From positions 310,001 to 374,000 of the forward strand of contig CAWEXD010000010.1 of NCBI GenBank assembly GCA_963812945.1: 64,000 nt of DNA, in the 5' to 3' direction. The position numbers were made by a program, and so were the translations under genes. Numbering within the stretch: the first letter of the stretch is position 1; each line of letters begins with the position of its first letter. The stretch is from DASRDR01 sp963812945 [NCBI: uncultured Candidatus Rokubacteria bacterium] (GTDB lineage Bacteria > Methylomirabilota > Methylomirabilia > Rokubacteriales). This document shows positions 13,571 to 52,701 of this stretch, piece after piece. The notes beneath the pieces were generated by a model. It was given only the letters and a program-made list of their open reading frames with translations, was not told the DNA's origin and did no database searches.

Positions 13571-14371
13571 GTGACGGGCGCGTGGGACGCCGCCGCCTGG
13601 CAACGCCTCTCGACGGAGCTCGAGCGCTGGCCCCGCAGCACCGCGACGTGCTGGTGGCGGGACGACGACGCGGGCGCCGCCAGCGCCGCCTTCGACCGCC
13701 TTCTCGCCCTGGCGGCGGCGCACTCGACGCCGCTCGCCCTCGCCGTGGTCCCGGCATGGCTCGACGAGACCGTGGCCGCCCAGATCCGCGTGGCGCCGGC
13801 GGGCGTCCACGTGCTCCAGCACGGATACGCGCACCGGAACCACGAGCCCCCGGCCGCCGCCGGCACGCGTGGGCGTCCGGCCGAGTTTGGCGCAGCGCGC
13901 CCCGTCGATGCGGCCCTCGCCGATCTCGCCACCGGCCGGGCTCGGCTGGCCGCCCTGGTCTCGACGCGACTGCGCGCGGCCCTCGTGCCCCCGTGGAATC
14001 GGATCGCTCCCGCGATCCAGGCGGCGCTGCCCGGCACCGGCTACCGGGTCCTGTCGACCTTCGGGCCCCGGTCGTCAGCGCGGGCGGGCGCCGGCCTCCG
14101 GGCGCTCAACTGCCACGTCGACCCGATCCAGTGGCGCGCGGGCCGGCAATTCGGCGGGGCGGCGTCGACGCTGGATCAGCTCACCGCGCACCTCGCCGCC
14201 CGGCGGGCGAAGTCGGTCGACCCCGCCGAGCCCACGGGGCTGCTCACGCATCACCGCGACCTGTCCCCACCGGCGTGGGCGTGCGTCGACGAGCTCCTCG
14301 GCCGCATCCGCGCCCACCCGGCGGTGGCCTTCCCGGCGCTCGGGCCGCTCCTGGACGGCGGCGACCATTAG
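13571..14371 (+). CDS. Polysaccharide deacetylase family protein
   Basis: 266 residues from GTG 13571. It opens with the CWWRDDDAG motif, supplying the catalytic Asp and the metal Asp of a NodB-like subgroup. HVLQHGYAHRNHEPP follows near residue 80-94 with the metal-binding H-x(3-5)-H. Later come ALVPPWNRI and GLLTHHRDLS, both typical of this subgroup. It probably removes N-acetyl groups from the glycan made by the neighbouring transferases. The last 52 bp before its divergent tail are repeated (46 of 52 identical) at 16828-16879, beyond the integron island. Confidence 0.83.
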   Translation: MTGAWDAAAWQRLSTELERWPRSTATCWWRDDDAGAASAAFDRLLALAAAHSTPLALAVVPAWLDETVAAQIRVAPAGVHVLQHGYAHRNHEPPAAAGTRGRPAEFGAARPVDAALADLATGRARLAALVSTRLRAALVPPWNRIAPAIQAALPGTGYRVLSTFGPRSSARAGAGLRALNCHVDPIQWRAGRQFGGAASTLDQLTAHLAARRAKSVDPAEPTGLLTHHRDLSPPAWACVDELLGRIRAHPAVAFPALGPLLDGGDH

Positions 14372-14414
14372 CCAACCTTGACGCCCCGTCGAGAACGTGC
14401 TTTGTTCAGCCTGA

Positions 14415-14505
14415 AACCACCACGCAGGAGCTTGCTGGGACACCGGGACATGGCCACCGGGCCACCGTCCAGGATATGGGTGTAGTTCATCGTTGTGCTC
14501 AGGCG
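14415..14505 (-). pseudogene. Tyrosine-recombinase (integron-integrase-like) C-terminal remnant, scrambled
   Basis: On the minus strand about 14500-14455 reads STTMNYTHILDGGP. This matches the end of XerC/IntI-type recombinases, where the Tyr of xYTH is the nucleophile. On the plus strand the adjoining 14424-14457 reads QEL (one extra base) LGHRDMAT, the block that normally comes just before it. So the two halves lie in opposite orientation around a GGCCACC direct repeat, as after a micro-inversion, with a frameshift as well. Nothing else of the gene is recognisable. With the attC sites downstream it is best read as a dead integron integrase. Confidence 0.55.
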
Positions 14506-14753
14506 GAGTCCGGCGGACCCAATATGCTCCTCACGTACCTCGCCCGCCGCTTCCGCAGTAATGTGCGCCAAGATACGCAGCGGGCCCGCTCCGCGTCTCT
14601 TGGCTCGGCAACGTTCCGTCAATCCGGTGCAACGTCGCGGAGTGAAAGCACCGGAGGTCAGTATGGGGAACTGGCGGAACGTCGAGAGAGGCCGCGTGGA
14701 CTCGCAGCGTTTGCTGTCATACGCGGACCTGCGTATCCTGGGGCCGAATTCGA

Positions 14754-14760
14754 GTTGGGC
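14754..14760 (+). other. Candidate cassette boundary (attI or attC core, GTTGGGC)
   Basis: The seven bases GTTGGGC fit the integron core GTTRRRY and equal the R' core of attC1 at 15831-15837. They sit nine bases before a GGAGG-type site for the binding-protein gene, where a cassette insertion point would be expected. No complete attC hairpin precedes them, so this could be an attI-type point or chance. Confidence 0.4.
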
Positions 14761-14781
14761 AGGCAGGAGGTGACAACGACG

Positions 14782-15759
14782 ATGGCGATGCGGTTCGCCG
14801 CTGCCAAGCTGGTCGCCGCCCTCATCCTTGTCATGTTCGCCGCAGCGCTCGCCGCGGAGGCGCAGCCGCCGGGGAGGGTCCCGCGGATCGATGTCCTGAC
14901 CGTACTCCCCTTGTCGTCCATCACGTTCCCGCGGCAGTTTCCCGAAGCCCTCCGCGATCTTGGCTACATCGAAAAGCAGAACATCATCCTGGACTGGCGC
15001 TCGGCCGATGGGAAGCCCGATCGCTTGGCCGACCTGGCGGCCGAACTGGTTCGCGTCAAGGTGGATGTGATAGTCGCCATCACGAATCTGGACATCCTCG
15101 CGGCGAAGCGGGCGACGACCACGATCCCCATCATCATGGGGGCAGGCGCCGACGCCGTCGCCACCGGACTTGTGGCCAGCCTGGCTCGGCCCGGGGGCAA
15201 CATCACCGGCAGAGTGTACAGCTCAGAGACAGTGGCCAAGCAGCTCGAGGTGTTCAAAGAAACCGTTCCCACGCTCACCCGCGTCGCGTACTTGCGTGGG
15301 GAGAGGTGGCAGCCAGGAAGCATGGAAGGGCTTCCGGCGGGCGCCAAGGCGCTGGGGCTCGCGCTGCACGACGTCCCGTTGCCGAGAGACGACGTGGCGC
15401 GCGCCCTGGAAAAGGTCCGCCGCTGGGGGCCCGACGGGCTCTATGTGAGTCCGACCTTCCCTGCCGGTCATTGGGACGCAATTCTGAAGTTCGCGGTGCA
15501 GCACCGGCTCCCCACGATGTCTGCGACTCGCGGTTTGGTGGAAGCCGGCGGCCTGATGGTGTACCAGCCAAGCCACGTAGAGTCCGCCCAGCGAATCGTC
15601 TACTACGTCGACCGAATCCTGAAGGGGGCCAGGCCCGCCGATCTCCCGGTCGAGCAGCCGCAGAGGTACGATCTGGTCATCAATCAGAAAACGGCCAAGC
15701 AGATCGGGCTCACGATCCCCCAGTCGATCCTGCTGCGGGCGGATGCGCTGATTGAGTAA
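14782..15759 (+). CDS. ABC transporter substrate-binding protein, ABC_sub_bind type, in integron cassette 1
   Basis: 325 residues from ATG 14782, with GGAGG 11 bases upstream (GTG 14770 and ATG 14788 are alternatives). A signal peptide ends near ALAAEAQ. The mature part has the family order: RIDVLTVLPLSS, a DLGYIEKQNI..DWRSADG segment, then ATTTIPIIMGAGADAVATG and LARPGGNITG, and near the end DLVINQKTAKQIGLTIP. These are hallmarks of the ABC_sub_bind (TrpX-like) family. No permease or ATPase is adjacent. It is followed 15 bases later by an attC site and preceded by a core-like GTTGGGC, so it appears to be the payload of a 1077-bp cassette. Ligand unknown. Confidence 0.85.
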   Translation: MAMRFAAAKLVAALILVMFAAALAAEAQPPGRVPRIDVLTVLPLSSITFPRQFPEALRDLGYIEKQNIILDWRSADGKPDRLADLAAELVRVKVDVIVAITNLDILAAKRATTTIPIIMGAGADAVATGLVASLARPGGNITGRVYSSETVAKQLEVFKETVPTLTRVAYLRGERWQPGSMEGLPAGAKALGLALHDVPLPRDDVARALEKVRRWGPDGLYVSPTFPAGHWDAILKFAVQHRLPTMSATRGLVEAGGLMVYQPSHVESAQRIVYYVDRILKGARPADLPVEQPQRYDLVINQKTAKQIGLTIPQSILLRADALIE

Positions 15760-15774
15760 GAGTCTCGAAGAGCT

Positions 15775-15837
15775 GCCCAACTCAGCGTTAAAGTCGGACG
15801 GCGCGCAAGCGCGCCGCCGCTTAACGCAGCGTTGGGC
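15775..15837 (+). repeat. Integron attC site 1
   Basis: 63 bp. The outer boxes GCCCAAC (15775-15781) and GTTGGGC (15831-15837) are perfectly complementary and fit RYYYAAC / GTTRRRY. The inner boxes GCGTTAA (15785-15791) and TTAACGC (15821-15827) are also complementary. The outer and inner boxes are separated by three bases on each side, and an extra unpaired base lies beside the left inner box. The centre is a GGCGCGC/GCGCGCC stem. It is oriented with the R' core next to the following cassette gene. Confidence 0.85.
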
Positions 15838-15846
15838 GGCAAAGTA

Positions 15847-16308
15847 ATGACCGAGAACCTCAAGATCCGCTCGGCCAATCCCACGGACGCGGATGAGCTC
15901 CTTGCGATACGACGAGACGCCATTATGGCTCTTGCCGAGGAGGACGGCCGCGTAGCGGCCGAGCGATGGGCAAGTGCAGCACATCCCGACCGTGCGGCCA
16001 AGGCGATTGCTACCAACAGTGTTTGGGTCACAGAGTGTGGTTCGAAGGTCGTTGGCTGGGTTGAGGTCAGCGGCGCGACGATCGAAAGCTTGTATGTCAG
16101 CTCCGCTGCCGCGCGCCGAGGAGTCGGCTCGTCGCTCTTGGCGCACGCCGAACGGCAGATCCGCGATGCCGGTGCTTCTGTCGCCTACCTGGACGCAAGC
16201 CCAAATGCCGAAGCATTCTATGCGCGTCGCGGTTACAGACGGGTCGGAGAGGTCAAGGCGAACAATTCAATTCCCATGAGCAAACGGCTCGATCTGAGCG
16301 CCGTCTAA
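15847..16308 (+). CDS. GNAT acetyltransferase, integron cassette 2
   Basis: 153 residues from ATG 15847, ten bases after the attC1 core. GNAT fold: IRSANPTDADELLAIRRDA at the N-terminus, then IESLYVSSAAARRGVGSSLL, the acetyl-CoA pyrophosphate-binding R-x-x-G-x-G loop. The end is VAYLDASPNAEAFYARRGYR, the usual FYxRxGF motif. The acceptor is unknown; it could be an antibiotic, amine or toxin. Base composition is visibly less G+C-rich than the flanking genes. The stop codon lies inside the first box of attC2, a layout usual for cassettes. The full cassette is 529 bp. Confidence 0.88.
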   Translation: MTENLKIRSANPTDADELLAIRRDAIMALAEEDGRVAAERWASAAHPDRAAKAIATNSVWVTECGSKVVGWVEVSGATIESLYVSSAAARRGVGSSLLAHAERQIRDAGASVAYLDASPNAEAFYARRGYRRVGEVKANNSIPMSKRLDLSAV

Positions 16309-16366
16309 CAAACCGCTGCAGCCGACGCGGCAAACGGCGCCGCGCGGCTGAGCGCCCGCGTTAGGC
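16303..16366 (+). repeat. Integron attC site 2
   Basis: 64 bp. Outer boxes GTCTAAC (16303-16309) and GTTAGGC (16360-16366) fit RYYYAAC / GTTRRRY and pair at six of seven positions. Inner arms CGCTGCAGCCG and CGGCTGAGCG pair perfectly except for one extra G in the left arm. That bulge is the extrahelical base that sets strand choice in attC folding. This is the clearest of the three sites. Confidence 0.9.
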
Positions 16367-16373
16367 ATGCCCG

Positions 16374-16805
16374 ATGAGTTTGGCTGCGCGAACTACAAGC
16401 ATTCTGGCAATTGTTACCAATGCCATCGTCCTCTTTCCAACCGCGGCCATCGCTCTCGGGTACTTTCGGCGGCAAGGTCTGGAGTGGACTCATGTTCTGG
16501 CGCTCCTACCGCCGGCTGCGGCAATCGCGGCAGTTCTGCTCGTGTCCCGAACGCATCCCCGGAGCATAGGACGAGGTGCAGCAATCGGTCTGGCATCGGC
16601 GGCTACGCTATACGTCTCTCTTTCGGCGATCTACATCTTTGGGCAGCACAGATTGATCTCCCAGGACGGAACGGCATTCTGGGCGCTGGTGATCGTACCG
16701 GCTGCTTGGGTGTGGCCTCCCGTCCTCCTCGTGGGCACCGCGCTCGGCGCCTTTGCACAGCTGCTAGCTCTGCGCGTTAGGAGACGGGGAGGCGGAGATG
16801 CCTAA
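16374..16805 (+). CDS. Small integral membrane protein of unknown function, integron cassette 3
   Basis: 143 residues from ATG 16374, eight bases after the attC2 core. Four hydrophobic segments are visible: about 9-30, 41-58, 69-92 and 103-133. The C-terminus is basic (LRVRRRGGG), suggesting a cytoplasmic end. I recognise no family. Like many cassette products it may be a niche or defence trait. Its stop codon TAA falls within GCCTAAC (16800-16806), the first box of a third attC. Base composition is lower in G+C than the chromosome around it. Confidence 0.75.
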   Translation: MSLAARTTSILAIVTNAIVLFPTAAIALGYFRRQGLEWTHVLALLPPAAAIAAVLLVSRTHPRSIGRGAAIGLASAATLYVSLSAIYIFGQHRLISQDGTAFWALVIVPAAWVWPPVLLVGTALGAFAQLLALRVRRRGGGDA

Positions 16806-16908
16806 CTATCGCATGCACCTGCCGGTCCAGCTCCTCGGCCGCCTCCGTGCCCACCCGGCGGTGCCCTTCCCACCGCTCGACGGGTGGCTCGCCGACAGGA
16901 CGGACTAG
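16798..16908 (+). pseudogene. Duplicated 3' end of the polysaccharide deacetylase gene
   Basis: The frame from 16828 reads QLLGRLRAHPAVPFPPLDGW, against ELLGRIRAHPAVAFPALGPL at the end of the deacetylase at 13571-14371. 46 of 52 bases match between 14291-14342 and 16828-16879; similarity fades afterwards. An in-frame ATG at 16798 within the cassette end would give a 36-residue peptide, probably meaningless. It is the right-hand partner of a direct repeat flanking the integron island. Confidence 0.7.
16800..16827 (+). repeat. Truncated attC site 3 (left half only)
   Basis: GCCTAAC at 16800-16806 fits the left outer box and overlaps the stop codon of the cassette-3 gene exactly as in attC2. 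The right half with GTTRRRY is missing. Instead the sequence runs from about 16828 into a copy of the deacetylase gene end. This marks the right breakpoint of the array. Confidence 0.6.
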
Positions 16909-17036
16909 GCTCACGCAGACTTGACGCCGGGCGCGAGCACGGTCACCCTCGAGGTGGACGCCGTGCAGCCCGACGATGCCGACGGCCGGGGCGCCGCGAG
17001 CCCCCGGCTGGCCAGCACGTCGTTCTCGGAGGACGC

Positions 17037-17463: not shown

Positions 17464-19056
17464 CTACAGATCGATCCGCTCGGACGCCGGGAGCGTGAGG
17501 AACTCGACGAATGGCTCGCCGAGGGCGACGGCCTCGAAGAGCTCCTGCGCCGCGCCGTAGTGCCCGGCGGCGTACGCGGCCTCGCCGACGGCCGCGCGGA
17601 GCTTCTCGAGCTCCTCCCCCACGATGCGCCGCACGAGCTCCCCGGTGACCCGGCCGCCCTCGACGAGGCGGACGCCGTGACGCACCCACTGCCAGACCTG
17701 GGAGCGCGAGATCTCGGCGGTCGCCGCGTCCTCCATCAGGTTGAAGATGGCGACGGCGCCGTTCCCGCCGAGCCACGCCGCCAGGTACTGGAGCGCGACG
17801 CCGACGTTGTTCCGGAGCCCGGCCTCGGTCACCGTCCCGCCGGGCACCCGGACGTCCAGGAGCGCCCGCGCGTCGGCCGGGACCTCTGGGCGCTGCCGCT
17901 CGAGCTGGTGAGCGCGCGCCCCGAGCAGCCGGGCGAACGGCTCCCGGGCGACCGCGACGAGATCCGGGTGCGCCACCCACGTGCCGTCGAACCCGTCCTC
18001 GGACTCGCGGACCTTGTCGTCCCGGACGCGCGCCAGCGCCACCTCGGTGACCTGCGGGTCGCGGCGGTTCGGGATGAAGGCCGCCATGCCCCCGAGCGCG
18101 TGGGCGCCCCGGCGGTGGCAGGTCTTGACGAGGAGCTCGGTGTAGGCCCGCATGAACGGCACGGTCATCGTGACCTGCGCCCGGTCCGGCAGGGTGAACT
18201 CGGGCTGAATGCGGAACTTCTTGATGAGGCTGAACATGTAGTCCCACCGCCCGGCGTTGAGCCCGCCCGAGTGCTCGCGCAGCTCCCACAGGATCTCGTC
18301 CATCTCGAAGACCGCCGGGATCGTCTCCACCAGGACGGTGGCGCGGATCGCGCCGCGCGGGAGCCCGAGCTGATCCTCGGCGAGCACGAACGCGTCGTTC
18401 CAGAGCCGCGCCTCGAGATGGCTCTCGAGCTTCGGCAGGTAGAAGTACGGGCCGCTCCCGCGCTCGAGCAGCGGGCGGCCGTTGTGGAAGACGTAGAGCC
18501 CGAAGTCGAACAGGCTCCCCGAGACGGGGGCCCCGTCAACCCGGAGGTGCCGCTCGAGCATGTGCCACCCGCGCGGACGGACCAGCAGGGTCGCGACGAC
18601 GTCGCTCAGGCGGTAGACCCGCCCGTCCGGGTTCGTGTGCTCGATCGTCCGCGCGACCGCGTCGACGAGGTTGACCTGACCCTGGACCATGTTGCCCCAG
18701 CTCGGCGTGTTGGCGTCCTCGAAGTCCGCCATGAAGACGTCGGCGCCGGAGTTGAGCGCGTTGATGACCATCTTCCGCTCGGCAGGGCCCGTCAGCTCGA
18801 CCCACCGGCGCTCGAGATCCTTCGGGGCGGGCGCGACCGTCCACGCCCGCTCGCGAATCCCGCGGGTTTCGGGCAGGAAGTCGAGCTGGGCGCCCGCATC
18901 GAAGGCCGCCTGGCGCTCGGCGCGGCGCCGGAGGAGCGCCGTGCGGGTCGGGCCAAGCTCGCGCTCGAGCGCGGCCACGAAACCGAGCGCCGCCGGCGTC
19001 AGGATCTCGGCGAACCGGCCCTCGCGGGGCCCGTGCAGTTCGATGCCGTCGGCCAT
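17464..19056 (-). CDS. aceB: Malate synthase A
   Basis: Condenses glyoxylate with acetyl-CoA to malate, closing the glyoxylate shunt. 530 residues, matching the roughly 530-residue A form. Seen are [90 protein letters not shown] and [13 protein letters not shown]. Together these hold the catalytic Arg and Asp and the Mg-binding Glu/Asp. The ATG 19056 is used here, but AGGAGG lies eight bases before GTG 19062, which may be the real start. Isocitrate lyase is not in the window. The gene lies after the PhnCDE-type importer, 160 bp away. Confidence 0.95.
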
Positions 19057-19216
19057 CACCACGGTCGAATCCTCCTGACAGTTGGGATTACCCGCGGGCA
19101 CCGCCGAACCTGGGCGCCCGCCACGAGAAGTAAAATTCATCCTACTACGCCCGCCCACGGATCGCGAGCGAGGCCGACCGGTCCGGCTCGCGCCGCCCGG
19201 TCGCGGCACCCGCGCG

Positions 19217-19957
19217 CTAGACGAGCCGGGCCCGGATCCGTGCGCTCGCGAAGTCGACGACCATGACCATCACGACGGTGACGAGGAGCACCGTGGAGGC
19301 CGCCGGGTAGTCGATCATCCGGAGGTAGGTCTGCAGATAGAGCCCGATGCCCCCCGCGCCGACGAACCCGAGCACCGTCGCCGCCCGGACGTTCGACTCG
19401 AAGCGGTAGAGGACGTAGGAGAGGAAGAGGGGCAGCACCTGGGGGAGCACGCCGAACCGGAGCACCTGGAACCGCGTCGCGCCGGTCGTACGGATGGCGT
19501 CGACGGGCCCCGGGTCGATCCCCTCGATGGTCTCCGAGTAGAGCTTCGCCAGGGACGTCGTCGTGTACGCGACCACGGCCAGCATGCCGGGGAAGGGCCC
19601 GAGCCCCACGGCGGCGACGAAGAGGAGCGCGTAGACCAGCGTGTCGATGCTGCGGAAGAAGTTGAGCGCGGTGCGCATCGCGTAGTACACGGCCGGTGGC
19701 GCCACGTTGCGGGCCGACAGGAAGCCGAGCGGCACCGCCAGCGCCGCCGCGAGCCCGGTCCCGAGAAGCGCGATCTCGATCGTGCCGACCGCCCCCTTGA
19801 GGGCCGCGGGGAGGACGGCCGGGTCCGGGGGGACCATGCGGCGAACGAAGTCCCACATCCACGGGATGCCCCGCACGAGCCGGGCCGGGTTGGCGTCGAT
19901 GTCCCACGCAATCACCGCGAGCAGGAGCGCGCCGCCGATCCACCCGAGGCGCCTCAC
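19217..19957 (-). CDS. phnE: PhnE-type ABC permease of a TPP-riboswitch-controlled importer
   Basis: 246 residues. GTG 19957 overlaps the stop of the ATPase gene (GTGA). It is a type-1 permease with six hydrophobic segments. The coupling loop is [20 protein letters not shown], typical of phosphonate-type permeases, and [20 protein letters not shown] is the family signature. It carries the substrate delivered by the PhnD-like protein across the inner membrane. Because the operon leader is a TPP aptamer, the substrate is more likely thiamine or a thiamine precursor than phosphonate. Confidence 0.9.
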
Positions 19958-20697
19958 GCCGCCGCCTCCCCGTAGACGGCCTGGACCACGGCGGGGGAGA
20001 CGGCCGCCGGCGGGCCGTCGAACACGATTCGCCCCGCCCGGAACCCGACGATCCGGGTGCCGTATTCCAGCGCGGCCTCGAGCTGATGCTGGCTGACGAC
20101 GAGCGTGAGGCGCCGCTCTCGGTTGATCCGCCCCAGGATGCCCATGATCGAGCCCGTGAGGGCGGGATCGAGGCTCGCCGTCGGCTCGTCCCCCAGGATC
20201 ACCCGCGGCTCCTGCGCCAGCGCTCGCGCGATGGCCACCCGTTGCTGCTCCCCGCCCGAGAGCGTGTCGGCGCGCCGGTCGGCGAACTCGAGGAGGCCGA
20301 CCTGGCCCAGGCACTCCTGCGCGAGGGCCCAGTCGCGCGGCGGGAAGCGACCGACGAGGCTCGGCCACTCGGGGACGTAGCCGAGCCGGCCGGCCAGCAC
20401 GTTCTCGAGCACGGACGCGCGGCGGACCAGGTTGAACTGCTGAAAGATCATGCCGATCTGGCGGCGGACCTGGCGGAGCGCGCTCGGATCGGCGCCGGTC
20501 ACCGGCTGGCCGGCGACCCGCACGGTCCCGGCCGTGGGCTCGACGAGACGGTTGATCGCGCGGAGAAACGTCGTCTTGCCCGCGCCGCTGCGTCCGATGA
20601 TCACGACGAACTCGCCGGGCTGGACGACGAGATCGACCCCGTAGAGCGCCACCGTGTCCGGCGGCAGCACCACCCGGAGACCCCGAACCTCGATCAT
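19954..20697 (-). CDS. phnC: PhnC-type ABC ATP-binding protein
   Basis: 247 residues from ATG 20697. Walker [10 protein letters not shown] (about 35-43), [19 protein letters not shown], signature [17 protein letters not shown], Walker [13 protein letters not shown] and switch [10 protein letters not shown] are intact. The [15 protein letters not shown] block is characteristic of PhnC. Its stop overlaps the permease start and it begins 47 bp after the binding-protein gene, so the three genes form one operon. It is the ATPase of the importer. Confidence 0.92.
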
Positions 20698-20744
20698 GGG
20701 TCCCCCGATGGGCGCCGGGGCGTCCGAGCCCCGGCCGCCCGGGG

Positions 20745-21629
20745 TCAGCGCTTCGGACGCCAGCCGAGCAGGTCCATCGCCGCGCGCACCGGATCGTACT
20801 CCCGGTCCTCGGCCGGCTCGAAGCCGTCGATGTCGTAGAGCTGCTTGAGGAGCGGCGCGTACGCCGGGCCCTTCATGGACAGGAGCGCCGTGCGCACCTT
20901 GGCGAAGAGCGCCGGATCCAGCCCGTCCCGGGCGGCGATGCCGCCTTCAGGGATCGGCGCGCTCTCGGCGACGAAGATGAGCCGCTCCCGCTGCGCCGGG
21001 TCCTTCAGGTACTGCTCGCGCGCCTGGTCGAACGAGGCGAAGGCGTCGACGTGCCCGTTCAGGAGCGCCTGGAGGCCCGCATCGTGCGAGCCGGCGAACA
21101 CGAATTCCTTGAAGAAGGTCTTCGGATCCCGGTTCCGGACGAGCCCCTTCTCGATGAGCATGACCATCGGATAGACGTAGCCCGACGTGCTGGAGGGGTC
21201 CACGAAGGCGATCGTCTTGCCCCGAAGGTCCTCGAGCGTCTTGAGGCCGGACTCCTTCCGGACGTAGATCCGCGAGGTGTAGGACGTGTTCCCGTGCCAC
21301 TGGTCCTTCGCGACGATCATGGCCTTCGCCTCGCGATTGGCCAGGACGTAGCCGGCCGGGTGGACGAAGGCCAGGTCAGCCGTCCTGTTCCGCAGCGCCT
21401 CGACGACCGCCGCGTAGTCCGAGGCGACCGTGACACGGACGGGGACGCCGACCAGCTTGCCGAGCGCGGCCCCGAAGGCCTCCCCCGCCACGAGGAGATC
21501 CGTGGGCTTCTGGGACGGGGTGAGGACCAGGTGAAGCGAGGTCTGGGCGCCCGCCGGCCACCCCCCGCCCGTGACGGCGACGAGGAGTCCGGCGGCGAGG
21601 ATTCTCAGGGCGACGGACCGATACACCAT
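20745..21629 (-). CDS. phnD: PhnD-type substrate-binding protein under TPP riboswitch control
   Basis: 294 residues from ATG 21629. The signal peptide ends near GGWPAGAQT. The mature protein has the phosphate/phosphite/phosphonate-binding layout: VLTPSQKPTDLLVAGEAFGA, ADLAFVHPAGYVLAN, LRGKTIAFVDPSSTSGYVYP and AFASFDQAREQYL. The S-S-T-S-G loop is where PhnD binds an anionic group. The untranslated leader is a TPP aptamer whose 3' strand contains the ribosome site. Control by TPP suggests the ligand is thiamine, its phosphate or a pyrimidine precursor. A phosphorylated ligand would fit the fold best. Confidence 0.9.
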   Translation of the reverse strand: MVYRSVALRILAAGLLVAVTGGGWPAGAQTSLHLVLTPSQKPTDLLVAGEAFGAALGKLVGVPVRVTVASDYAAVVEALRNRTADLAFVHPAGYVLANREAKAMIVAKDQWHGNTSYTSRIYVRKESGLKTLEDLRGKTIAFVDPSSTSGYVYPMVMLIEKGLVRNRDPKTFFKEFVFAGSHDAGLQALLNGHVDAFASFDQAREQYLKDPAQRERLIFVAESAPIPEGGIAARDGLDPALFAKVRTALLSMKGPAYAPLLKQLYDIDGFEPAEDREYDPVRAAMDLLGWRPKR

Positions 21630-21633
21630 TGGA

Positions 21634-21728
21634 CCCTCCCTGCGCTGGCATTACCCAGGTCAGGTTCAGGCGGTCGGCAGCGGGCGCGCTGCCCTCTCAG
21701 CTCGGCGCTCCGAGCTCCCGCGATTCCC
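21634..21728 (-). promoter_or_regulatory. TPP riboswitch (THI element)
   Basis: On the minus strand the order of conserved blocks is CTGAGA (21700-21695), a GC-rich hairpin, then CCTGAACCTGACCTGGGTAA (21668-21649). TGCCAGCGCAGGGA follows directly. These match the two halves of the TPP aptamer, pyrimidine- and pyrophosphate-sensing. A GCTCGG/CCGAGC stem precedes CTGAGA, as P3 should. The 3' strand GCAGGGAGGG includes the ribosome site and ends about four bases before the ATG at 21629. So ligand binding should hide the site and block translation directly, without a separate terminator. Confidence 0.93.
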
Positions 21729-21980
21729 TGGTGGTGGAGTCTAGCCGCGGCCCCGGGGACCGTCAACCGGCCCTCGGCGACTGACAATCCGCGACGGGGA
21801 CCCTGACAGTCCGGACCGGCGCTGTGTCACCCACACGGCAGCCGATCCGCCCTCGGCACTGGCCAGCCTCCATGTTTTCGATGGGTTGTGGCTCTGCGGC
21901 TCCCCGGCGCGCAGGTTGCACGGTGAAGGCGACCGGTGCTGGCATTCCCCGGCACACCATGCAGAGGAGGAGAACTGTCA

Positions 21981-23161: not shown

Positions 23162-26100
23162 GTGGCCCCACTCGGCCAAGTCCTGGGGAACTGCCCCACG
23201 ATCCTGGCCCTCCGGGAGGAGGTCGACAGGCTCCTCCGCCAGGTCGGCGCGCGGCGCCCGCCCGCAGTCCTGATCCTGGGTGAGACCGGCAGCGGCAAGG
23301 GATTGCTGGCGCGCGAGCTGCACCGGGCGGGCCCCCGGCGCGACGGCCCCTTCGTCGCCCTCAACTGCGCCGCCGTCCCCGAATCTTTGCTCGAGGCGGA
23401 GCTTTTCGGCTTCGAGCGGGGCGCCTTCACCGACGCCCGACACGCCAAGCCGGGGCTGTTACAGGCCGCGCATCGCGGGACGCTGCTGCTCGACGAGATC
23501 GCGCTGCTTCCCCCTGCGGTCCAGCCGAAGCTTCTGACGGCCATCGAGGAGCGCACCGTGCGACGCCTCGGCAGCGTCACGCCCGAGTCGGTCGACGTCT
23601 GGATCATCGCCGCCACCAACGCCGACCTGGTGACGGCAACTCGTCGGGGCACCTTTCGCGAGGACCTCTATCACCGGCTCGCCGTCCTCACGCTCACCGT
23701 GCCGCCGCTCCGCGAGCGGGGCGACGACATCGTCCTTCTGGCCGAGCGCTTTCTGGCCAAGGCGTGCGCCGACTATGGGCTTCCCGCCAAGACGCTGGGG
23801 CGCGATACCCGGGCGGTCCTGCTCGCCTATCCATGGCCCGGGAACATCCGGGAGCTCGGCAACGTGATCGAGCGCGTGGCGCTCGTCGAGGAGTCGAGCC
23901 ACCTGACCGCCGAGATGCTCAGGCTGCCGGCGGGCCGGGCGCCGGATCCCGCGGGTGAGCCGGCGTCGGCCGCGCTCCCCAGCCTCAAGGACTCCGTGAG
24001 CGACCTCGAGCGTTCCCGCCTGCTCCAGGCGCTCGACGAGACCGGGTGGAACGTGTCGCGGACGGCCGAGCGACTCGGGGTCTCGCGGAACCAGGTCCGC
24101 TATCGGATCGAGAAGTACCAGTTGCGGCCAGAGACTCGTTCCAGGCGCCGGAGCCGGTCCGTCCCGGCTGCGCCGGACACGGCACCAGCCACCCCGGCCG
24201 CCGCACCGGCGACCTGGTTCCCTTGGGAGCGCCGCCACCTGGCCTTCGTCGGGGTCTCGATGATCGCGGCGGGCGGGGAGGATTCTTTCGACACCAGCGG
24301 CACCCTAGCCGACCACGTCGAGAAGCTGCAGGCGTTCGGTGGCGTGGTCGCGGAGGTCGGCCCGACGCGGGTCGTCGTCACGTTCGGCCTCGAGCCGATC
24401 GAGGACGCCCCGGTTCGAGCCGCGCTCGCCGCCCTGGCGATCCGGAAGGCGGCCGAGCACCTGGAGGTTCTCGAGCCCCGTCCCCCCGGGGTCGCCCTCG
24501 CAATCCATGTCACTCAGGTCCTCATCGGCGGACCGGGCAACGTGCCTCGAGTCGATCAGGCCAGCGGGCGCGTGGCGATCGGAGTCCTCGAGAGCCTGCT
24601 GGCCCGGCGCGAGGCGATGGCGATTCTCGTGAGCGACGCGGCGGGTCCCTTCCTCGCACGCCGGTTCGAAATGCTCCCGGTCGACCGGGTGAATGGGGCT
24701 ACCGGCTATCGTCTTGTGGGTCGCGAACGCTCCGGCTTCGGACTCGAGGGCCGGCCCCTCAGTCCGTTCGTGGGTCGGGCTCACGAAATGGATGCCGTCT
24801 CCACGCTGGCCGCCCGCGTGGCGCAGGGCCGCGGGCAGCTGCTCGGGGTCGTCGGCGAGCCCGGAGTCGGGAAGTCTCGCTTCGCCTTCGAGGTGAGCCG
24901 CCTGGAGGGCCTACAGGGCTGGCGGGTCCTGGGGTGCGCCGCGACCTCGCACGGGACTGCCACGCCCTACCTGCCGATTCGCGAGCTCCTTCGGACCTAC
25001 TTCGAGCTGGACGATTCCGAGCCGCGCCTCGCGCTTCGCGCGCGCGTCGCGGACAGGGCTCGCACTCTCGGGCCGGCGCTCGAGGCAGATCTCCCCGCGT
25101 GGCTCAGCCTCCTGGAGCTGCCGGTGGACGACGCCCGGTGGGCCGGCCTCGATCCAGCCCGCCAGCGCCAGCATTGCCTGGAGGCGATCAAGCGGCTGTG
25201 GATCCGGGAGAGCCAGCTCCAGCCCCTCCTGCTCATCCTCGAGGATCTTCACTGGAGCGATTCCGAGACGCAGGCCGTGCTCGACACCCTGGAGGAGAGC
25301 CTGCCGGCGGCCCGCATCCTGCTTCTCGTCACGTACCGGCCGGGCTTCCGGCACGGCTGGGCCGACCGGACCTACTACACGCAGCTCCGGCTCGATCCGT
25401 TGACCCCGGAGGGAACGGCGGACCTCCTCCGACATCTCCTGGGGAGTGACCGGAGCCTCGGTCCCGTGGCGGAGCTCGTGACAGCCCGCTGCGAAGGGAA
25501 CGTCTTCTTCCTCGAAGAGACGGTCCGCATGCTCGCCGAGACCGGCGTCATCGCCGGAGAGCCGGGTGCCCGCGGTCTAGCCGGGCCGGTTCACGCGATC
25601 AAGGTCCCAGAGACCGTCCAGGCCCTCCTCGCGGCCCGGATGGACCGCCTGTCACCCGAGGACAAGCGGGTGCTGCAGGCGGCGGCGGTGATCGGACGCG
25701 ACGTGCCGCTCGTGCTCCTGGAGGCCCTGGCCGGATCGAGCCACACGGAGGCTCTCCGGCGGCTCCGGGCGGCGGAGTTCCTCTATGAGGTGAGCCTGGC
25801 CGGCGAGCCCGGCTACACGTTCAAGCACGCCCTGACTCACGACGTCGCCTATGAGAGCCTGTCCGAGGGGTCGCGCCACACGCTCCACGTGCGGGTCGTC
25901 GAAGCCATCCACGCGGTCTACAGGAACCGGCTGGGCGAGCAGACGGAGCGCCTGGCTCACCATGCCTCCCGCGGTGAGCTGTGGGACCGGGCGCTCGCCT
26001 TCGCCCAGCAGGCGGGGCATCGCGCAGCCGCCCGCTGCGCATTTCCAGAAGCGGCCGCCGCGTTCGAGCAGGCCCTGGTGGCGCTGGATCACCTCCCGGG

Positions 26101-27259
26101 GAGCCCGGAGGCGGTTGCGCTGGCCATCGACCTGCGTTTCGAGCTCCGCAACGTCCTGATCGGGGCCGAGGACGTCAAACGCATCCGCCCGCACCTAGAC
26201 GTGGCCGAGCGGCTCGCCTCGACGCTCGGGGACCGCGCCCGGCTCGCTCGTGTGCTCGTCTACCGGTCGACGCTCCTCTGGCTCTCCGGTGACCACGCGA
26301 GCGCCATCCAGAGAGTGTCGACGGCCCTCGAGATCGCGGTGGCGCTCGGGGACACGGAGCTCGAAGTCATGGCGAGGGTCCACCTGGGCGCTCCCCACTA
26401 CACCCTCGGCGAGTATCGGCAGGCAGTGGCGCATCTGGAGCGGGCGATCGACCTGAGCGGCGGGGAGCGGCTCCACCAGCGCCTGGGCATGTCCGTCATC
26501 GCCTCCGTGCAATCCCGGCGATGGCTGACCTGTTGCCTGGCCGAGCTGGGCGCGTTCGACGAGGGGGCCCGCCGGGGCGAGGAAGCGGTCCGGATCGCCG
26601 ATTCGGCAGGGCACCTGGCCAGTCAGTCTTCCGCACGTCTGGCGGTGGGCTTCCTACACCTCGTTAGAGGCGATCTAACCGCCGCTATCCGCTCTCTGGA
26701 AGGGGGGGTCGACCTCGAGGGCCGCCTGCCCGTCAGCTCCTGGTTCGAGACGGCCAGATTCGCGCTCGCCTTAGCTCATGCTTCCGCTGGTCGAGTCGAC
26801 GAGGGATTCCGGATCCTACAGAGCGCCTATCACAGCTTCAGAGTCGAGCGCATTCAGCGACAGGTGTGGCTCGCCGAGGCGCATTTACTGGCGGGCCGGG
26901 TCGAGGAATCAGCGCGCCTGGCCGATGAGGCGTTGACCCTGGCTCGGGACCGTTGCGAGCGAGGTCGCGAGGCCTGGCTGCTCCGTCTTCTTGGACAGAT
27001 TGCGCTCGCGCGCAGCCCGAGCGGGATTGAGACGGCGGAGGACTCGTACCGCCAGGCCCTGGATCTGGCTGAACAGCTCGAGATGCGCCCGCTCGTGGCC
27101 CAGTGCCACCTGGGCCTCGGTCGCCTCCATCGGCTGGCTGGACGGATGGCGGCGGCACGCTCCGAGCTGGAAACCTCGCTGGCGCTGTTCCGCTCGATGG
27201 GCATGGACACGCCGGCGCGTCGGGCCGAGGCCGAGCTCGCGGGGTGTGCCGCGCCCTGA
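23162..27259 (+). CDS. Four-module regulator: sigma-54 activator AAA+ and Fis HTH, cyclase-like domain, STAND-type ATPase, TPR
   Basis: 1365 residues from a GTG without a strong ribosome site. Residues 10-250 are a sigma-54 activator ATPase: Walker A GETGSGKG (40-47), the L1 loop as GAFTDA (87-92, normally GAFTGA), Walker B GTLLLDEI and R-fingers FREDLYHRL. Residues 275-322 are a Fis-type HTH ([20 protein letters not shown]). About 355-520 resembles a class III nucleotide cyclase domain without clear metal Asp residues. It is followed by a [13 protein letters not shown] start and Walker A GEPGVGKS (565-572) of an AAA_16-type ATPase, then TPR-like helices to the end. Tandem fusion of these modules is rare. 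The input is probably a ligand sensed by the C-terminal part. Confidence 0.85.
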
Positions 27260-49307: not shown

Positions 49308-50858
49308 TCAATTCCAGCTTGCGCCCTTGATGCGAATCAGCCCGTCGGGCACGGCCTTGTAGCCCTTGAGGTTCTTCGGGAAGGCCGTGATGTAGTTCGC
49401 GTGGTAGAGGTAGAGGATGTTCCGGCGCGCGCCGAACTTGTCGACCGCCTCGCGGTAGAGCTGGGTGCGCTGCTGGAGGTCGCTGACCTCGCGCGCCCGC
49501 GTCAACAGCGAATCGATCGTCTCGTCGCACGCCTGCGTCGTGTTCAGGCTGCCCTGGCACGTGTGGAACTGGTGGATGTTGGCGTCGGGATCCACGCGGC
49601 CGCTCCAGCCCACCTGGAAGGCCTGGAGCTTCCCGGCGTCGTCGTCGTTCAGGGACGCCGCGAATTCCGACGGCCGGATGGAGATGTTGAACCCGGCTTC
49701 CTTCGCCATTTCCTGGATGACTTCGCCCATGCGTCGTTCCGGCGGCTGGTTGGCAACCGTGAGCTCGAAGCCGTAGCCCTGCGCCAGGCCCGCGTCGGCC
49801 AGGAGCTTCTTGGCGCGTGCCACGTCCCGGCCCGGACACTTGCGGCTCTTGTCGTGGAACGGGCTCACCGGCGAGATAGGCGTGCAGCCGACCGTGAACT
49901 GGCCTTCCCAGACCACCTGGTTCAGCGCTTCGCGGTCGATCGAGAGCTCCAGCGCCTCGCGGACGCGGGGATCGTTGGCGAGCGGAGTCCCGAGGTCTCC
50001 CGCTGCCGCGGGGGGCTTGCCGTTCTTGTTGCGGAGGTTGATGGTGATCCCCGTGTAGGCGATGCCCGTCACGCTGGCGACGTCGAACTTGGTCTCCTTC
50101 TTGAGGCTGGTCGCGTGGGTCGGGTTCACCTGGTGCATGAAGTCGATGTCGCCCGAGCGCAGATTGGCGAGCCGGACGTTGTCGTCCGTGATGATCCGGA
50201 AGACGAGCCGGTCGAACTTGGCCTGGCCCGGGTCGAAGTAGTGCGTGGACTTCTCGAGCACGATGCGGTCCTGGGCGACCCGCTCCGTGAAGGCCCACGG
50301 CCCGACGCACACGGGCGCGGTTCCGAACTTGTCGTCGAGCTTCTTGGCCTGGGTGGGCGAGACGGGCATGCCGGCCCGGTCGGCCAGAATGGCCGTGATG
50401 GGTGCGAAGGGGGCCTTCAGCCGGAGCCGCACGGTGAGGGGGTCCACTACCTCGACCGCGTTGACGTGGTCGAGCTCGCTGCGCCGGCTGGAGCCCTTCA
50501 TCTCCCGGTGGCGATCGAGGGAGAACTTCATCGCCTCCGCGTTCAGGGGGGTGCCGTCGTTGAACTTCACACCGGAGCGGAGCTTGATCGTGACGGTCTT
50601 CCCCCCGTCGGCAAACGCTGGGAGATCCGCGGCGAGCTGGGGCGAGATCTTGAGGTTCTCGTCGAGCTCGTAGAGCTTCTCGCACATGTGGGCGTAGATG
50701 ATGCGCCCCACATACGTGCGGGAGAGCGTCGGATCCAGGATGTCCGGGTCCTGGTTCAGCCCGATCACGAGCGTCTTCTTCTGCGCCTCGGCGGTGGCCA
50801 CCGCCATGAGGACGCTCAACAGCATCGCCAGCGTGCACCCCAGTCGGATCCTCATCAT
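49308..50858 (-). CDS. dppA: Dipeptide-type ABC substrate-binding protein (DppA family), copy 1
   Basis: 516 residues from ATG 50858, with GGAGGG upstream. Signal peptide ends near VATAEAQKK. SBP family 5 blocks: VIGLNQDPDILDPTLSRTYV, TVTIKLRSGVKFNDGTPLNA, GPWAFTERVAQDRIVLEKST and LSIDREALNQVVWEGQFTVG. Highly similar in order and sequence to the next gene, so a tandem duplication. The conserved YFDPGQAKFDRLVFR segment is shared. Probably binds peptides or another organic nutrient in the periplasm for DppBC. Confidence 0.93.
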   Translation of the reverse strand: MMRIRLGCTLAMLLSVLMAVATAEAQKKTLVIGLNQDPDILDPTLSRTYVGRIIYAHMCEKLYELDENLKISPQLAADLPAFADGGKTVTIKLRSGVKFNDGTPLNAEAMKFSLDRHREMKGSSRRSELDHVNAVEVVDPLTVRLRLKAPFAPITAILADRAGMPVSPTQAKKLDDKFGTAPVCVGPWAFTERVAQDRIVLEKSTHYFDPGQAKFDRLVFRIITDDNVRLANLRSGDIDFMHQVNPTHATSLKKETKFDVASVTGIAYTGITINLRNKNGKPPAAAGDLGTPLANDPRVREALELSIDREALNQVVWEGQFTVGCTPISPVSPFHDKSRKCPGRDVARAKKLLADAGLAQGYGFELTVANQPPERRMGEVIQEMAKEAGFNISIRPSEFAASLNDDDAGKLQAFQVGWSGRVDPDANIHQFHTCQGSLNTTQACDETIDSLLTRAREVSDLQQRTQLYREAVDKFGARRNILYLYHANYITAFPKNLKGYKAVPDGLIRIKGASWN

Positions 50859-50907
50859 CCCTGCCCTCCGCACTCCGCGAGTCGGTTGATCCCCTCGACC
50901 CCTCCGG

Positions 50908-52452
50908 CTAGTTCCAGCTAACGCCCTTGACGCGGATCAGGCCGTCCGGGACAGCTCGGTAACCCGTGAGGTTCTTCGGAAACGCGACGATGTAGCCCCG
51001 GTGGTAGAGATAGATGAGGTTCCGGCGGGCACCGACCTTGTCCATCGCCTGGCGGTACAGCTCGACGCGCTCCTTCTGGTCGCTCACCTCGCGCGCCTTG
51101 TTGAGGATGGTGTCGAGGCCCTCGTCGCAGACGTTGGACTGGTTCAGGCTGGCGCCGCAGGCGTGGAAGTTGTGGAACTCGGTGTCCGGATCGACGCGCC
51201 CGCTCCAGCCGATCAGAAAGGCCTGGTCCTTGCCGGCGTCGCTGTCCTGGAGCGCCGAGGCGAACTCCTTCGGGACGAGCGTGATGTTGAAGCCCGCCTC
51301 CTTCGCCATCCCCTGGATGATCTCGCCCATCCGCCGCTCCTGCGGGTTGTTGACGATCACCATCTCGAACGCGTACCCGCCGGCGAGGCCGGCGTCGGCG
51401 AGGAGCTTCTTGGCCCGCGCCACGTCGCGGGTGGAGCACTGGCGGCTCTTGTCGAAGTAGGGGCTGTTCGGCGGCAGCGGCCCGCAGCCCGAGGTGTACT
51501 GGCCTTCCCAGGCCACCTGGTTCAGGGCGACTCGGTCGATCGAGAGCTCGAGGGCTTCCCGCACCCTGGGGTCGTTGGCCAAGGGCGTGCCGAGGTCGCC
51601 CCGGGGCGCGTGCTTCCCGGTCTTGTTGTGGATGTTGACCGTGATGCCGTCGTAGCCGATGCCCGTCACGCCGGACACCGAGAACTTCGCCTCCTTCCGG
51701 AGGCTCGTGGCATCGGTCGGGCTGATGCGCTGCGCGATGTCGACGTCGCCAGAGCGCAGGTTCGCGACGCGGACGTTGTCGTCGGGGATGATGCGGAAGA
51801 TCAGCCGGTCGAACTTGGCCTGGCCCGGGTCGAAGTAGTGCGGGGACCTGTCGACGACGATGCGGTCCTGAGCGACCCGCTCCGTGAAGGCCCAGGGGCC
51901 GACGCAGACGGGCGCGGTCCCGAACTTGTCGTCGAGCTTCTTCGCCTGCGTCGGCGACACCGGCATGCCCGCGCGGTCGGCGAGGACGGCCACGATGGGC
52001 GAGAACGGCTTGGACAGCCGGATGCGGACGGTCGCGGGATCGGGTGCCTCCACCTCCGTGACCAGTGATAGCTCGCTCTTGCGCGTGCTCCCCTTCATGT
52101 CGCGGTGCCGCTCGAGCGAGAACTTCACGGCGGCGGCGTCCATGGGCGTCCCGTCGTTGAACTTGACCCCCGAGCGAAGCTTGATGGTCACCGTCTTCCC
52201 GCCGTCGGTGAAGCGGGGCATCTCGGCGGCGAGCTGCGGGTGAATGTTCAGGTTCTCGTCGATCTCGTAGAGCTTCTCGCACATGGCCGCGAACACGATC
52301 CGCCCGACGTACGTTCGCGCGATCGTCGGGTCCAGGATGTCCGGATCCTGGTTCAGCGCGATCACCAGGGTCTTCTTCTGCGCCTCCGCCGTGGCGGTCG
52401 CCACGAGGACAGAGAGCAGGATCGCCAGCACGAGCGGCAGCTTGATCCTCAT
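50908..52452 (-). CDS. dppA: Dipeptide-type ABC substrate-binding protein (DppA family), copy 2
   Basis: 514 residues from ATG 52452. It is a paralogue of the gene 49 bp downstream: signal peptide ending VATATAEAQKK, then VIALNQDPDILDPTIARTYV, TVTIKLRSGVKFNDGTPMDA and GPWAFTERVAQDRIVVDRSP. The untranslated leaders also share CCCTCCGCACTCCGCGAG (plus strand), so the duplication took in the leader. Ligand-facing stretches differ (for example KEFASALQDSDAGK against SEFAASLNDDDAGK). The two may thus have different ligand ranges. Confidence 0.93.
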   Translation of the reverse strand: MRIKLPLVLAILLSVLVATATAEAQKKTLVIALNQDPDILDPTIARTYVGRIVFAAMCEKLYEIDENLNIHPQLAAEMPRFTDGGKTVTIKLRSGVKFNDGTPMDAAAVKFSLERHRDMKGSTRKSELSLVTEVEAPDPATVRIRLSKPFSPIVAVLADRAGMPVSPTQAKKLDDKFGTAPVCVGPWAFTERVAQDRIVVDRSPHYFDPGQAKFDRLIFRIIPDDNVRVANLRSGDVDIAQRISPTDATSLRKEAKFSVSGVTGIGYDGITVNIHNKTGKHAPRGDLGTPLANDPRVREALELSIDRVALNQVAWEGQYTSGCGPLPPNSPYFDKSRQCSTRDVARAKKLLADAGLAGGYAFEMVIVNNPQERRMGEIIQGMAKEAGFNITLVPKEFASALQDSDAGKDQAFLIGWSGRVDPDTEFHNFHACGASLNQSNVCDEGLDTILNKAREVSDQKERVELYRQAMDKVGARRNLIYLYHRGYIVAFPKNLTGYRAVPDGLIRVKGVSWN

Positions 52453-52701
52453 CGCCGGTGCCCTCCGCACTCCGCGAGCTGGTTAGTCAAGGCGCGGACC
52501 CCTGCTTCGGGACGGTGGCCCGATGGTCAGGCCACGCGACCGATGATAGGCCGGCGGCTCACGAGCCGGCAAGAGCCGATCCCGGCCCCGTCGGCCCGGC
52601 CACCGGAACCACCACCCGGACTCGTCCGGAAAACCCGCGCCCGGGAGGGCATGTTCCCCTCATGGCCCCGGCGCGAGGGACGCCAGGCGGACAGTCGCCG
52701 C

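Follow-up and report, generated by a model that had tools for sequence, protein, structure and literature searches.

Probable residue of a small chromosomal integron with two attC sites in a 72% G+C stretch of bacterial DNA

An integron cassette consists of one gene followed by an attC site, and forms the unit between two GTTRRRY cores (PMC3053210, which also gives the core definitions). Clusters of attC sites without an integrase are widespread in bacteria (PMC9024848, PMC9668308). A CALIN requires at least two attC sites (PMC9024848), and a study of archaeal integrons places these less than 4 kb apart (PMC9668308). According to the latter, CALINs in Bacteria outnumber integrons with intI and are also more widespread.

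The locus described here lies in a 64-kb stretch of DNA, which we call the window. It is a CALIN by definition, as judged with our own attC model (R1) and our own IntI profile over the 64 kb. It has two attC sites 465 nt apart and a single cassette direction, and the 30-row IntI profile found no intact intI in the six frames of the window. Unlike a plain CALIN, the locus keeps a left core and what is probably a stub of the integrase, and its right edge is cut inside an attC. The core and the probable stub can still be made out and so allow a guess at how the element decayed. Very likely, in our view, a small chromosomal integron once stood here and lost its integrase, and the segment between about 14398 and 16828 is what is left of it. 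An earlier note on this DNA, made from its letters, had read the locus as a decayed integron with cassettes. This is still the best reading, now with an independent attC model, the cassette anatomy and a placed IntI-like scrap behind it.

Chromosomal integrons with short attC sites, found at two of our intI loci (L037 and L038), resemble the locus in several respects. Their sites are about 60 nt long with seven-base cores, two extrahelical bases are located in the left arm, and the integrase is placed divergently. In contrast to them, the locus lacks a working integrase, and just two of its cassettes are complete. Class 1-type cassettes offer another comparison. Site 2 shares its plan with the 60-nt attC of locus L046, which we take to be aadA-like and of class 1 type. 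However, the locus has no intact intI1 in the window and no resistance gene above the curated cut-off. The lengths of the two sites (63-64 nt) are similar to those of several sites in Pseudomonadota integrons.

Both sites are genuine attC sites. Core pairs of the form RYYYAAC...GTTRRRY were searched on both strands of the 64 kb, allowing lengths of 45-150 nt and requiring a stable fold and complementarity at five or more of the seven bases. Only these two sites were found (Table 1), each of them on both strands because they are near-palindromic. The coordinates in the earlier note were right, and so was its claim of complementary ends. The cores of site 1, GCCCAAC/GTTGGGC, are complementary at all seven bases, and those of site 2, GTCTAAC/GTTAGGC, at six of seven. 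Under a stricter test of pattern plus fold, the + strand of the window had two matches and 200 first-order resamplings had none. Folding of the bottom strands, a check proposed with the earlier note, also favours the sites. When they were cut exactly, none of 200 shuffles equalled either fold. With a few flanking bases added, the z-score is -2.34 for site 2 (6 of 200 shuffles as good) and -5.70 for site 1 (0 of 200). Read by eye, the bottom-strand fold of site 2 has an extrahelical T and C on one side, six nucleotides apart. PMC3053210 gives this spacing as the best for excision by at least two integrases. In site 1, also read by eye, a further unpaired base is located between the two usual extrahelical bases.

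The attC model was built from integrons outside the window. Of 299 Pseudomonadota genomes, 60 had matches to the integron integrase family TIGR02249 (E <= 1e-40), and attC candidates were drawn from up to 20 kb around 40 of these matches. Part of the candidate listing came from a scan of the + strand only. Twelve short sites (58-68 nt) of the 50 candidates listed were used for training, with no sequence from the window among them. The longer sites, including all 18 of L049, and a doubtful 47-nt site of L047 were excluded. R1 is a calibrated covariance model with an outer core stem, inner-arm stems and two extrahelical bases. Its E-values are rough, having come from a short calibration, yet the margin is large. 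When the whole window was searched without filters, the next-best place scored 15.8 bits. The earlier note had named low attC covariance scores as an outcome that would refute it, and by our own model both sites stand far above that place. On their opposite strands they scored 28.0 bits (site 1) and 20.5 bits (site 2). A joint search of the 40 integrase regions and the window gave 122 lines, among them the 12 training sites and matches on the wrong strand. Site 2 ranked 8th in this list and site 1 18th.

Table 1. Features of the locus, from left to right (positions in the window).
Feature	Position	Strand	Evidence
Left direct-repeat copy: 3' end of DUF2334-like gene 13571-14371 and about 25 nt past its stop	14292-14397	+	51-bp similarity
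Putative C-terminal IntI scrap LSTTMNYTHILDGGPVA	about 14452-14502	-	top IntI-profile match, E 2.4 (not significant)
Core GTTGGGC, left edge of cassette 1	14754-14760	+	same sequence as core at 15831; 21 nt before ATG
Cassette 1 gene, 325-aa ABC_sub_bind (PF04392) substrate-binding protein	14782-15759	+	Pfam E 1.2e-38
attC of cassette 1 (site 1)	15775-15837 (63 nt)	+	covariance model 51.9 bits, E 4.4e-11; bottom-strand fold z -5.96 (exact cut)
Cassette 2 gene, 153-aa GNAT acetyltransferase	15847-16308	+	PF13673 E 1.3e-14
attC of cassette 2 (site 2)	16303-16366 (64 nt)	+	covariance model 63.1 bits, E 5.9e-14; bottom-strand fold z -3.36 (exact cut)
Cassette 3 gene, 143-aa hydrophobic protein (by eye)	16374-16805	+	family match: none
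Inverse core GCCTAAC of third, truncated attC	16800-16806	+	sequence; overlaps stop TAA of cassette 3 gene
Right direct-repeat copy: C-terminal codons and stop of second DUF2334-like gene end, then further DNA	16829-16941	+	51-bp similarity

Cassette 1 (14755-15831) and cassette 2 (15832-16360) each consist of one gene and an attC between two GTTRRRY cores. Cassette 3 has no right core. The earlier note counted three cassettes; two of them are complete, whereas the third gene has only an inverse core and its attC is otherwise undetected. The half site proposed there is present as sequence and does overlap the stop codon. However, the fold around it is no better than chance, and the covariance model has no match there. 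The stop codon of the cassette 2 gene sits within the inverse core of its own attC. Genes 2 and 3 were said to start 8-10 bases after a core. This holds for gene 2 (9 nt) but not for gene 3 (7 nt). All three genes run in the attC direction, as was also claimed, and the orientation assigned by the model agrees. The left core of cassette 1, absent from the earlier note, was added by the present analysis. It is one of 8 GTTGGGC among 32 GTTRRRY on the + strand of the 64 kb, and neither the core pattern nor the covariance model found an attC upstream of it. This core is a candidate for an attI-type core or for the last bit of a lost attC. The sequences of attI sites are highly variable.

The captured genes, which encode a binding protein, an acetyltransferase and a small membrane protein, look like ordinary accessory functions. 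The binding protein has solved relatives (3lkv, 3lft and 6hni), and by eye its N-terminus resembles a signal peptide. No permease or ATPase gene is found within the insert. If expressed, it would depend on an ABC transporter of the host. The NCBIfam matches of the acetyltransferase are all under the family cut-offs, and the cassette 3 protein has no match in Pfam, NCBIfam or PADLOC. Five terms for these kinds of cassette gene do not occur in PMC11089894. No other segment of this length in the window is as poor in G+C as the insert (63.6% compared to 72.0% overall). GC3 is 0.83, 0.66 and 0.61 in cassette genes 1, 2 and 3, compared to 0.93 and 0.89 in the two flanking genes. The observation that the cassette genes are visibly less G+C-rich is thus borne out.

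The integrase is represented by a scrap at most. The IntI profile has 30 rows, two of which (L013 and L031) look wrong in frame or strand and were kept. Among 1138 six-frame fragments of the window, its top match is the scrap listed in Table 1, and the next are chance matches at E 9 and 9.9. The IntI sequences in the profile carry a C-terminal motif, TTMIYTHVLN-GG, to which the scrap is similar. About 17 residues at most are recognisable as IntI-like, and the functional intI of a complete integron was not found in the window. The open reading frame that holds the scrap has no Pfam or NCBIfam match. The scrap is located at the left end of the locus, divergent from the cassettes, as in intact integrons, and about 250 nt separate it from the first core. 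An integrase remnant reading away from the cassettes had been placed here before. Its place and direction stand, but its sequence match is not significant. We regard the scrap as a probable integrase stub, weak as sequence and stronger by position. The former attI region may have been located in the 250 nt that lead from the scrap to the first core. The same interval contains a hairpin-rich segment, 14607-14683, with a z-score of about -4 on both strands, which is not attC-like. This hairpin was considered as a further attC and rejected, as it has no core pair and no model match.

Our analysis also revealed a duplication around the insert, which goes beyond the earlier note. The segments 14292-14342 and 16829-16879 are 90% similar over 51 bp, and none of 2000 shuffles was as good. 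Both copies translate as C-termini of the same kind of protein, through to the stop codon. Past the stop codons the similarity is suggestive only (31 of 2000 shuffles as good), and the repeat perhaps reaches up to about 106 bp. The insert, about 14398-16828, is therefore flanked on each side by the end of a DUF2334-like gene, and these two ends have diverged from each other. This arrangement suggests that the insert entered by recombination between diverged DUF2334-like copies, or that it replaced most of a tandem paralogue.

Several other origins of the locus can be weighed against the decay of a small chromosomal integron. Hairpins are common at high G+C, and the two sites might be palindromic spacers or terminators in an ordinary operon, with no integron involved. 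We consider this extremely improbable. The model E-values of both sites come with strand specificity, none of 200 resamplings yields such a site, and cores, extrahelical bases and stop overlap occur together. The cassettes could also have entered singly at a secondary, non-integron site, with an integrase acting in trans. No integron would then ever have been located here, and the IntI-like scrap would be a chance match. The E-value of 2.4 over the window is consistent with such a history, as is a left core of which GTTGGGC alone is present, with no attC arm that can be recognised. However, the scrap is the best IntI match of the window, and both its divergent direction and its distance of about 250 nt from the first core are as expected. 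An array explains more readily than repeated off-site insertions why two complete cassettes and a third all point the same way. Separate entry at a secondary site is, in our view, quite unlikely.

The direct repeats that flank the insert (90% over 51 bp, perhaps longer) would also fit a mobile integron from a plasmid or transposon. It would have integrated by DUF2334-like homology, and the repeats would reflect a Campbell-type insertion. Short attC sites, of a length seen for several sites in Pseudomonadota integrons, are consistent with this origin as well. In contrast, inverted repeats at the two ends of the insert are not significant (130 of 1000 shuffles were equally good), and a Pfam scan of the cassette proteins gave no transposase, replication or transfer family. 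The repeat copies have diverged, so the integration event would be old. Arrival from a plasmid or transposon thus appears unlikely, and we retain the chromosomal integron that lost its integrase as the preferred origin.

Relatives of the cassette genes are few and distant. Among 398 sampled Pseudomonadota genomes, the binding protein has relatives in 5 (E <= 1e-50, best 44%) and the acetyltransferase in 3 (E <= 1e-12, at most 39%). The membrane protein has a weak 55-residue match in 1 of the 398. The earlier note would have been refuted by the same three genes in relatives without attC sites, and the Pseudomonadota samples gave only distant single-gene relatives. In 15 loci with about 1.5 kb on each side (L076-L090), no cassette-gene relative is located near an attC match at E <= 1. 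The attC model has no match at this threshold in 20 loci, which comprise these 15 and L001-L005. Among plasmids, the acetyltransferase matches 2 records at 26% and the binding protein 76 records, all below 60%; no relative of the membrane protein is found there. The binding protein has no relative among viral contigs.

The flanking genes are similarly isolated. Relatives of the DUF2334-like gene were found at five loci, two on MAG contigs (46-49%) and three in genomes (37-38%). We take all five to be alphaproteobacterial. Two glycosyltransferases on the left side of the insert have relatives in these loci. The cupin, malate synthase and permease beside the insert are in none of the five, which says little given MAG contigs of just 4 and 6 kb. 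No empty site is found among the five loci, these two short contigs included. The malate synthase (17464-19059, - strand) matched 37 of 299 Pseudomonadota genomes (E <= 1e-100). It is 59% identical to the best of them and 62% to an actinobacterial record, so no close relative of the host is present among those compared. A literature search found no paper on integrons and attC sites in Rokubacteria or Methylomirabilota. The host may belong to a high-G+C phylum without described integrons. A Pseudomonadota-type cassette set would then have crossed phyla and been fixed by homologous recombination between diverged DUF2334-like copies, with an orphan periplasmic binding protein as cargo. We regard this scenario as doubtful.

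The history of the locus may be pictured as follows. IntI would once have captured circular cassettes, the folded bottom strand of attC recombining with attI. The block would have arrived by one of the two DUF2334-like routes given above. Deletions at both edges may have followed, erasing intI almost completely on the left and removing the final attC on the right. The cassettes would now be fixed in place, and excision at attC 2 at least, by an integrase supplied in trans, is perhaps still possible. This suggests an order of decay for such elements, in which the integrase is lost first, an edge attC next, and the cassettes are kept. The element is genuine, but it is an unremarkable representative of a frequent type. 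As attC clusters without an integrase occur widely among bacteria, the finding carries modest weight. It contributes a further well-documented case of a decayed integron, here from DNA of 72% G+C with a malate synthase that has no close counterpart among the sampled Pseudomonadota.

Several features elsewhere in the window were also observed. A scan against Rfam at gathering scores gave one match in the window, a TPP riboswitch, and nothing at the integron locus. The riboswitch (68.8 bits) heads a phosphonate-type ABC set at 19217-21731 on the - strand, which consists of a binding protein (PF12974), an ATPase and a permease. Its position suggests thiamine or one of its precursors as the substrate of this PhnDCE-like transporter. 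ARAGORN reported a 95-nt tRNA-Thr at 24340-24434 (+ strand), inside the long open frame 23162-27259 and possibly spurious. At 49308-52470 on the - strand, two adjacent genes of 521 and 520 aa have very similar N-termini and probably represent a tandem duplication. Judged by eye, two genes beside this pair look like transporter permease genes.
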